A stretch of 58,206 nucleotides of DNA. Origin: Bacteroides sp. SM23_62. Its GTDB lineage: Bacteria > Bacteroidota > Bacteroidia > Bacteroidales > SM23-62. Numbering within the stretch: position 1 is the first letter of the stretch; every line of letters begins with the position of its first letter. Position numbers and translations under genes: made by a program. The stretch is taken from the NCBI GenBank assembly GCA_001303955.1, contig LJUP01000001.1, positions 84,328-142,533 of the forward strand. Reading direction: 5' to 3'. Below are positions 9,676 through 39,096 of the stretch, one piece after another. The notes beneath the pieces are model-generated. The model made no database searches. It was given only the letters and a program-made list of their open reading frames with translations, and was not told the DNA's origin.

Positions 9676-10218
9676 TTACTTTCCTTCAAATTGAACGATG
9701 GATGAAATGATCCTATTCTTCAACATTTTTCTGCCTTTCAGATCAATGAGCTCAATAACAAACAAACACCCTGATACGATACCACCACTTTTTTCAATCA
9801 ATTTGCAGGACGCATTTGCAGTCCCACCCGTAGCCAACAAATCATCCAGCACAAGATAAGCTGATCCATCTAGGATTGCATCTACATGCACTTCAACCGT
9901 GTCTTTTCCATATTCCAGCTCATAATCTACAGAATTAACTTTTGCAGGCAGCTTTCCTGGTTTTCTGATTGGGACAAACCCCTTCCCCAGCATTTGTGCC
10001 AATGCTGACCCAAAAATAAATCCACGGGACTCAATCCCCGCCACAAAATCAAACGCCGGAAATCTCCGAGAATGCAACACAAGATATTCACAAGAAGCAC
10101 GAAATGCCGTGGCATCTTTCAACAATGTCGTAATATCGCGAAACATTATTCCCTTTTTAGGATAATCCGGAACAGTCCGTATTGAATCCCTGATCAGGGC
10201 AACCCTGTTATTTTCCAT
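9676..10218 (-). CDS. apt: Adenine phosphoribosyltransferase
   Basis: 180 aa; DYPKKGIMFRDITTLL, GIESRGFIFG, and PRPP motif VLDDLLATGGTA. Confidence 0.96.
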   Translation of the reverse strand: MENNRVALIRDSIRTVPDYPKKGIMFRDITTLLKDATAFRASCEYLVLHSRRFPAFDFVAGIESRGFIFGSALAQMLGKGFVPIRKPGKLPAKVNSVDYELEYGKDTVEVHVDAILDGSAYLVLDDLLATGGTANASCKLIEKSGGIVSGCLFVIELIDLKGRKMLKNRIISSIVQFEGK

Positions 10219-10260: not shown

Positions 10261-10276
10261 TGTTCCACGTGGAACA
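10261..10276. promoter_or_regulatory. parS: Putative parS centromere site (ParB/Spo0J binding)
   Basis: TGTTCCACGTGGAACA, perfect 16-bp palindrome; matches known bacterial parS sequences (TGTTTCACGTGAAACA / GTTCCACGTGGAAC variants). Lies in the 60-bp gap between apt and mnmG. Confidence 0.85.
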
Positions 10277-10278
10277 AT

Positions 10279-12159
10279 TCACCGGCCCATATGAATCAGT
10301 AAAACGCTTATATCCGATGGAGACACGCCGCTAATCCGGCTTGCCTGCCCAATGGTCTGTGGTCTTATTCGGCTCAGCTTTTGTCTGGCCTCAGTTGATA
10401 TTGATGTTAAATTATCATAATCAATACCATCTTTTATTTTTATCTTTTCCAGTCGTTTAATCTTTTCTGCCAGCTTCCTCTCCCTTTCAATATAACCAGC
10501 ATACTTAATACTTATTTCGGCCGACTCAACAATTTCATCTTCTTCTTTAAGGCGTAAAATTTTTTCCATAAATTCCTTAAATCCAGGCACACAGTTCCAT
10601 AGGTACTTAATACGTATTTGAGGTCTCTCTATCAAATGAATACTTTTTGTTTTCTGCCTCAGCGCAGTTGTTCCCAATTCAATAAGTCTATCATTCACAT
10701 CTTCAGGTGCGACACTTTTTCCCTTCAGAAAAGATATCACCCTGTCTCTTTTATTTATTTTTTCCTCTAATACATTTACTCTTTCTCTTTTAGCAAGCCC
10801 AGCCTCATATGAAATTCTAGTTAACCTCTCATCTGCATCATCTTGTCGTAACAAAATCCTGAATTCAGCCCGCGAAGTAAACATCCGATAAGGTTCATCA
10901 ACCCCCTTTGTAACCAGGTCATCTATTAACACACCTATATAAGAATTGTCTCTCTCAAGTAAAAACTTATCTTCATCCTTTACCTTCTTGTGTGCATTTA
11001 TTCCGGCAATGAGGCCCTGGGCTGCTGCTTCTTCATATCCGGTGGTGCCATTTATTTGCCCCGCGAAGAAAAGGCCTTCAATTTTTTTAGTTTCCAGGTT
11101 ATGAAAAAGCTGGGTAGGAGGATAGTAATCATATTCAATAGCATATCCAGGCCGGAATATTTTAACTTTCTCCAGACCTTTAATTTTTCTAAGTGCTTCC
11201 AGCTGTATATCCCATGGCAGGGAACTTGAAAATCCATTTATGTAATATTCATTTGTTTTCAGTCCTTCAGGTTCTAGAAACAGCATGTGCTGCTCTTTCT
11301 CTGCAAAAGTGACAATTTTATCCTCTATGCTAGGACAATACCTTGGTCCAACACTTTCAATCGTGCCATTGAACAGGGGAGAATCAACAAAACCTTTTTC
11401 CAGCGTTTTATGTGCCTCCTTATTTGTGTATGTGATAAAACAGCTTTTATGAAATCTATAATCCACCTCGTATGGTAAAAAAGAAAATTTTTTCCCTTCA
11501 TTATCTCCCTTTTGTTCTGTCATCACAGAAAAGTCTATTGTTCTTCCATCCAGCCTGGCAGGTGTTCCTGTTTTCATTCTTCCAACTTCAAAGTCTAATT
11601 CTCTTAGCTGTTCACTTATGCCAGAAGATGGTGGTTCACCCGCTCTGCCCCCTTTTTGCTTATTGCGTCCTATATGCATCAAACCATTTATAAATGTGCC
11701 ATTTGTCAGTATGACAGTTTTGCTTTTAAATGTTATATCCATCCGGGTTTTAACACCGGTCACCTTGTTCCCTTTAATGATTAGCTCTGTGACCATGTCC
11801 TGCCAGAAATCAATTCCAGGTATTCTTTCCAGGGTTTCTCTCCACTCCATACTGAATTTCATTCTGTCACACTGGGCCCTCGGACTCCACATTGCGGGGC
11901 CCTTTGAACGATTTAACATCCTGAACTGAATCATTGAACGATCAGTAACTATTCCACTGTATCCGCCCAGGGCGTCAATTTCCCTCACTATCTGACCCTT
12001 CGCGATACCTCCCATGGCAGGATTGCAAGACATTTGAGCAATCTTGGTCATATCCATAGTTACCAGAAGAACACGCGATCCCAAATTCGCAGCAGCGGCA
12101 GCAGCTTCACTTCCCGCATGCCCAGCACCTACCACTATCACATCATATTTTTCTATCAT
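10279..12159 (-). CDS. mnmG: tRNA uridine-5-carboxymethylaminomethyl(34) synthesis enzyme
   Basis: ORF 10279..12189; probable start at Met11 (MIEKYDVIVVGAGHAGSEAAAAAANLG). GidA motifs include CNPAMGGIAKGQIVREIDALGG and FAGQINGTTGYEEAAAQGL. Confidence 0.97.
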   Translation of the reverse strand: MIEKYDVIVVGAGHAGSEAAAAAANLGSRVLLVTMDMTKIAQMSCNPAMGGIAKGQIVREIDALGGYSGIVTDRSMIQFRMLNRSKGPAMWSPRAQCDRMKFSMEWRETLERIPGIDFWQDMVTELIIKGNKVTGVKTRMDITFKSKTVILTNGTFINGLMHIGRNKQKGGRAGEPPSSGISEQLRELDFEVGRMKTGTPARLDGRTIDFSVMTEQKGDNEGKKFSFLPYEVDYRFHKSCFITYTNKEAHKTLEKGFVDSPLFNGTIESVGPRYCPSIEDKIVTFAEKEQHMLFLEPEGLKTNEYYINGFSSSLPWDIQLEALRKIKGLEKVKIFRPGYAIEYDYYPPTQLFHNLETKKIEGLFFAGQINGTTGYEEAAAQGLIAGINAHKKVKDEDKFLLERDNSYIGVLIDDLVTKGVDEPYRMFTSRAEFRILLRQDDADERLTRISYEAGLAKRERVNVLEEKINKRDRVISFLKGKSVAPEDVNDRLIELGTTALRQKTKSIHLIERPQIRIKYLWNCVPGFKEFMEKILRLKEEDEIVESAEISIKYAGYIERERKLAEKIKRLEKIKIKDGIDYDNLTSISTEARQKLSRIRPQTIGQASRISGVSPSDISVLLIHMGR

Positions 12160-12222
12160 GCAAATAGAAATTTTTACAAATTTACACAAATGAAATTTTT
12201 AAAGACCGGTTGGTCCTTTTTT

Positions 12223-12645
12223 CTATATCTCCGGTGAGCTAATCAGGTAATGATTTTCCTTTTTTCTCATCGATGATTTCTTCCTTTCGTTTCCATCATC
12301 ATATCCTAAAAGGTGTAGGATTCCATGTACAATGACTCTTTTAAGCTCTTTCTTAAAAGTCACTTCAAACTCCTCTGCATTTTCCCTTACCCGTTGAACG
12401 CTTATGAACAAATCACCAGCAATCATCTGATTATCAGAATAATCAAAGGTAAGTATATCAGTCAGATAATCTCTATAAAGGTATTTTTTATTAAGCTCCA
12501 AGAGATTACTGTCTGAAGTAAAAATGATATTGATCTGTCCAGGGCAGCCATGCTCCTGCAATATCAGATCCCGAAGCCATTTTTTTAGGAGATTTTTATT
12601 TTTTATTCCGGTAGATGCCTCTCTTTCATGAAAATGTATAGCCAA
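12223..12645 (-). CDS. ybeY: Endoribonuclease / rRNA maturation factor
   Basis: 140 aa; VIVHGILHLLGYDDG (UPF0054 H-x3-H zinc motif). Confidence 0.94.
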   Translation of the reverse strand: MAIHFHEREASTGIKNKNLLKKWLRDLILQEHGCPGQINIIFTSDSNLLELNKKYLYRDYLTDILTFDYSDNQMIAGDLFISVQRVRENAEEFEVTFKKELKRVIVHGILHLLGYDDGNERKKSSMRKKENHYLISSPEI

Positions 12646-26471: not shown

Positions 26472-26894
26472 TTATTATATTCTATATAATTTTTATAATA
26501 ATGATGATAATAATGGTCTGTTAATTATATTAATATCTTAACTGAAATTACCTTAATTCATTTTATGAAAAAAAATGAAAATTGATACTAACATGATATG
26601 GTATGTATAATCATTATTATTCAAGAAAATATGGGCAAAATTAACAACTGTTGATTAAAATCAGGCAAGTCATGTTTGATAATCCATATTTATATGAAAT
26701 GTTGATAATATGTTTGCCTGTTTTTAGTAAATAAAGAGATTAAAATTTTGAATATTTGATTAAAAAAATAAGTATTTACTAAAATTAAATCATACAATTA
26801 TTTTTTTTAAAATTATTGAAAGATAATTAACACTCATTTAACAGTGTTTGAAATAATATAAAAACAAGATATTAAGAGATAAGGATAAAGGAAG

Positions 26895-26916
26895 TTTAAT
26901 ACTTTTAGGTATTAAA
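26895..26916. promoter_or_regulatory. Candidate operator: perfect inverted repeat upstream of rrf2
   Basis: TTTAATAC-TTTTAG-GTATTAAA (8-bp perfect arms, 6-bp spacer), 50 bp upstream of the Rrf2 start codon. Confidence 0.55.
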
Positions 26917-26966
26917 TAAATAATTTGTATAAATTTGAAAGGAGTAAATAAAAAAAGTACAAAAAG

Positions 26967-38933: not shown

Positions 38934-39096
38934 AAACCGATGATTTAAATTTTCACTAATTTAATATTTAATTAAAACATTTTACCCAGATATACTGCCA
39001 TTCCTGACAGTTTTACCCCAGTCCTTGATACATCTAGTTCTCCGAAATAATTCTTATCTTTGTCGCTTTCTGAAAAAAGGGTTTTGTTAGGATAAG

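Follow-up and report, generated by a model that had tools for sequence, protein, structure and literature searches.

A predicted chromosomal centromere (parS) conserved beside mnmG in Bacteroidota

What is a perfect 16-bp palindrome doing in the narrow gap behind mnmG, a housekeeping gene, in a genome fragment of Bacteroides sp. SM23_62? A first-pass annotation had read it as a centromere of the ParB/Spo0J class and had placed the surrounding DNA in the origin-proximal domain of the chromosome. The same element could in principle be an RNA hairpin, an operator, or an accident of sequence.

Results

A single parS match next to mnmG

The window, that is, the whole stretch of 58,206 bp analyzed here (C192:84328-142533, from a contig of 142 kb), contains as its longest perfect palindrome TGTTCCACGTGGAACA (the runner-up has 14 bp). 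It lies in the 60-bp gap between apt and mnmG, with 2 bp between it and the stop codon of mnmG (Table 1), in exact agreement with the coordinates of the first-pass annotation. At 10261-10276, there is no mismatch to the parS consensus TGTTNCACGTGNAACA, which, together with the conserved position across the order and the phylum (see below), upholds the assignment to the ParB/Spo0J class. Scanning the genome (5,784,682 bp in 403 contigs; 90.7% complete, 6.3% contamination) revealed no other match with zero or one mismatch, so that the motif is not scattered, although gaps between the 403 contigs may hide further parS sites. Matches with two mismatches numbered 15, versus 12 for a reversed-pattern control, and are noise. 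One of them, at 649-664, was considered as a second parS and rejected: such matches occur genome-wide at the background rate, and a contig of the same genus (G004:C229) that carries the genes neighboring 649-664 has no counterpart of it. Scanning the window against Rfam and for tRNAs gave no matches.

Table 1. Positions of parS, its neighboring genes, and the candidate replication origin in the window.
Feature	Position	Strand	Remarks
parS site TGTTCCACGTGGAACA	10261..10276	.	perfect 16-bp palindrome; predicted ParB nucleation site
mnmG (gidA)	10279..12189	-	conserved neighbor of parS; TIGR00136, 795 bits
apt	9676..10218	-	downstream neighbor
ybeY	12223..12645	-	upstream neighbor of mnmG
candidate oriC	26472..26966	.	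divergent nadA/rrf2 gap; down to 17% GC over 300 bp

ParA and ParB are encoded elsewhere in the genome

A parS reading depends on a ParB being present in the genome, and parA together with a truncated parB was found on contig C308. This also accounts for the earlier remark that parA and parB are missing from the window; dnaA is on C70, and neither contig is that of the window. ParA comprises 266 aa; parB adjoins parA and is present with its first 157 residues, after which the 5.3-kb contig ends. The ParB fragment matches TIGR00180 (143 bits), contains the CTP-pocket motifs GERRYKAA and ENIQRED as well as the beginning of the recognition helix (GKKRS), and reaches R173 (Caulobacter numbering), but ends, with the contig, before G201. 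The combination R173/G201 is the state typical of parS specificity, as against Q173/R201 in Noc (Jalal 2020, PMC7383237). R173, N178, G201, and R204 are kept in all five complete ParBs from the same genus, and one full-length ParB of the genus aligns to solved ParB/Spo0J structures. Noc-binding sites resemble the element in being 16-bp palindromes served by a paralogous protein of the ParB family; they differ from it in that the core here is the CACGTG of parS and in that the ParBs carry R173/G201, not the Q173/R201 of Noc.

The site tracks mnmG within the order

Conservation was assessed in an order-level set of 60 genomes, this one and 59 relatives, in which a ParB-family match was present in 57. 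The exact site occurred in 38 of the 60, the reversed control pattern in none. All but two of the 49 exact sites were located within 500 bp of mnmG, covering every one of the 38 genomes that have an exact site; 41 of these 47 lay at the 3′ side and 6 at the 5′ side of the gene. Nothing beyond general possibility speaks for a chance palindrome. Base composition predicts 0.00025 perfect occurrences of the 14 fixed bases per window and 0.025 per genome, and the conserved place in 38 genomes refutes chance, the probability of which is negligible. Downstream, some relatives have apt, others have uvrC immediately next, and others have neither of them within reach, and the site thus tracks mnmG rather than apt; in some relatives, parS sits in the ybeY-mnmG gap.

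Six genomes (G001, G002, G005, G015, G023, and G049) had neither a real mnmG match nor a site with up to one mismatch, as would be expected of a single assembly gap spanning the two. In G003, the contig breaks inside mnmG. In G007, which has a complete mnmG, a search of the initial 4 kb of the mnmG contig that allowed up to three mismatches did not find the site. One of the six, G023, is 99% complete in 40 contigs and has ParB; its lack of mnmG and parS reflects either a gap in the assembly at this locus or a genuine loss.

The position at mnmG is conserved across the phylum

Beyond the order, 80 named mnmG loci of Bacteroidota (Bacteroidales, Flavobacteriales, Cytophagales, Sphingobacteriales, and others) were inspected; they are the top matches to the query and do not sample the phylum at random. 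In 70 of them, a site that differs from the consensus at no more than one position lies 250 bp or less from an mnmG end. Exact sites numbered 85 in 79 kb near mnmG versus 13 in 509 kb far from it, which corresponds to an ∼40-fold higher density (odds ratio 42), and the reversed control gave none. Together with the exact sites of the order, these loci show conservation at the same place. By inspection, the site is mostly 3′ of mnmG in Bacteroidales, on both sides in many Flavobacteriales, and mostly 5′ in Cytophagales and Sphingobacteriales, where it sometimes makes up the first codons of a reading frame. In seven named genomes, every site but one was within ∼6 kb of mnmG, the exception being a one-mismatch site of Emticicia ∼100 kb away.

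Some loci show peculiar arrangements. In one Sphingobacterium (L109) and four Flavobacteriales (L085, L094, L113, and L121), parS overlaps with an ATG that directly precedes mnmG; in the former, it encodes the in-frame start MFHVEH, and, judged from this reading frame, the Sphingobacterium centromere may supply the first residues of the encoded protein. Flavobacterium sp. MC2016-06 (L079) carries, in the 1.2 kb preceding mnmG, ten parS-like sites, four of them spaced by ∼117 bp and having a CACATG core; the ten probably constitute an expanded centromere array.

A palindrome that is self-complementary and lies 2 bp past the mnmG stop codon could also act at the RNA level, as a hairpin that terminates or stabilizes the mnmG transcript at its 3′ end. 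However, the predicted local fold does not contain the palindrome hairpin and is no more stable than shuffled sequences (z −0.63), no terminator-like match was found at the site, and in many relatives the site is 5′ of mnmG or overlaps its start. Among the exact sites near mnmG, read in the sense of the gene, the half-site combinations were C..G (40), T..A (14), T..G (15), and C..A (16); C..A, in which the pair is broken, is about as frequent as T..G, which can form a wobble pair. As C..A cannot pair, two independent half-sites are conserved and not pairing. The half-site counts, the ordinary fold, and the lack of a terminator match led us to reject the RNA hairpin, which we regard as very improbable.

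An operator for a transcription factor controlling mnmG or apt would likewise be palindromic, intergenic, and tightly linked to mnmG. Against this notion stand the mostly 3′ location of the site in the order of the window, where the downstream neighbors vary, a consensus that is exactly that of parS, and those relatives in which the site is found at other genes. In Neolewinella and Phaeodactylibacter, thrC and a peptidase-like gene flank it; in one Saprospiraceae genome, it adjoins ybeY, mnmG missing there. In UBA1181, there is no site near mnmG, but one ∼4 kb past it. These genomes, which lack a site near mnmG, also have ParB. As the Saprospiraceae sites are at other genes or beside ybeY without mnmG, the element is not tied to expression of this gene, and, as relatives have it at other genes, it is not a regulator of mnmG as such; an operator function is accordingly very unlikely. 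The Saprospiraceae relatives (L270, L271, and L272), with parS at thrC/peptidase or at ybeY, represent a lineage-specific swap of the centromere neighbor. A search of plasmids with MnmG yielded nothing bearing on the parS question.

Proximity to the origin of replication

In most bacteria, parS is found near the origin (PMC7333895). The proposal that the window belongs to the origin-proximal domain was followed up by GC skew, and in long contigs of four relatives, the skew switches roughly 0–80 kb from parS. On a 1.08-Mb contig of the order-level relative G020, the skew stays negative as far as ∼344 kb and is positive for the most part from 370 kb onward; parS lies at 423 kb, and dnaA and parB are on other contigs. 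The skew turns at ∼500 kb in Christiangramia (parS at 468–470 kb) and at ∼290 kb in G030 (parS at 317 kb); in Roseivirga, the profile of which is noisier, it turns around 380–400 kb (parS at 387 kb), dnaA being 130 kb from parS and a six-box DnaA cluster only ∼4.5 kb from it. The contigs of Dokdonia (G060) and G008 had no usable switch within the sampled stretch and are uninformative. Nor did the 142-kb contig of the window show a clean one: its cumulative skew falls steeply from 3 to 26 kb of the window and is then flat, with a weak minimum at 39,070, 29 kb from parS. The skew supports origin proximity in the contigs of these four relatives and supports it weakly in the window's own contig.

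The steep stretch ends at an extremely AT-rich gap between nadA and an rrf2-type gene (Table 1), which contains one DnaA box of the TTATCAACA type, at 26700; clusters of DnaA boxes with TTATCCACA (up to one mismatch) were not found in the window. In G030, a DnaA-box cluster is located directly upstream of nadA, at the skew switch. Across 30 genomes, the 600 bp upstream of nadA contained 14 exact TTATCAACA boxes, compared with 0.6 in shuffles, and nadA and mnmG are 3–53 kb apart in the 19 genomes in which a single contig was found to carry both. These findings suggest, as a lead that was found by looking and not predicted beforehand, that the origin of the window's order lies upstream of nadA, here 16 kb from parS. 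The pattern is not universal: no nadA match was obtained in G020, where 67 kb separate the DnaA cluster from parS.

Discussion

The sequence identity to parS, the uniqueness of the site in the assembly, the presence in the genome of ParA and of a ParB with CTP-binding motifs, and the phylum-wide conservation at mnmG lead us to conclude that the palindrome at 10261-10276 is almost certainly the parS centromere on the chromosome of this member of the Bacteroidota. mnmG is the mere address of the site; parAB and dnaA are elsewhere. By analogy to the ParABS systems that have been studied, a ParB dimer would recognize the two half-sites, close as a CTP clamp, and slide onto the flanking DNA, toward mnmG on one side and apt and uvrC on the other. 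The ParB-parS complex would recruit SMC and be moved by ParA, and this movement would cause the origin-proximal region to segregate first.

The element shares with chromosomal parS of the ParB/Spo0J class (TGTTTCACGTGAAACA / TGTTCCACGTGGAACA) the identical 16-bp palindrome, the chromosomal ParA and ParB in the same genome, the presence of one to few copies per genome, and, in relatives, the vicinity of the GC-skew switch. Unlike them, it is not beside parAB or dnaA but has a fixed place at mnmG, in many cases at the stop codon of this gene. According to the sections drawn on here of a Hi-C study of gut bacteria, among them Bacteroides caecimuris, parS was clustered at the origin in 12 species examined, and dnaA does not systematically mark the origin in such bacteria (PMC10197239). 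Those sections do not name the gene adjoining parS; the present analysis adds the association with mnmG across Bacteroidota. The class of chromosomal parS was already known, and its phylum-wide fixity at mnmG is the addition. Literature searches on parS with mnmG/gidA or Bacteroidota did not return the link to mnmG, although the survey tables of Livny 2007 may already contain it; the retention of parS at mnmG across Bacteroidota, apart from parAB and dnaA, may be under-reported.

A more far-reaching scenario, on which our confidence is evenly divided, is that the centromere of Bacteroidota has been fixed at an ancestral ybeY-mnmG locus since early in the phylum, within tens of kilobases of oriC and with parAB and dnaA elsewhere, and that, in the order of the window, the origin itself corresponds to the AT-rich gap upstream of nadA, at a distance from mnmG of a few to some tens of kilobases.

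For a phylum in which many genomes are fragmented MAGs and dnaA is an unreliable marker of the origin (PMC10197239), the site could provide a landmark of the origin-proximal domain that requires DNA only. A centromere can keep one housekeeping gene as its neighbor over phylum-scale time while the genes for its own proteins lie elsewhere, and the reason why parS is fixed at mnmG becomes testable.
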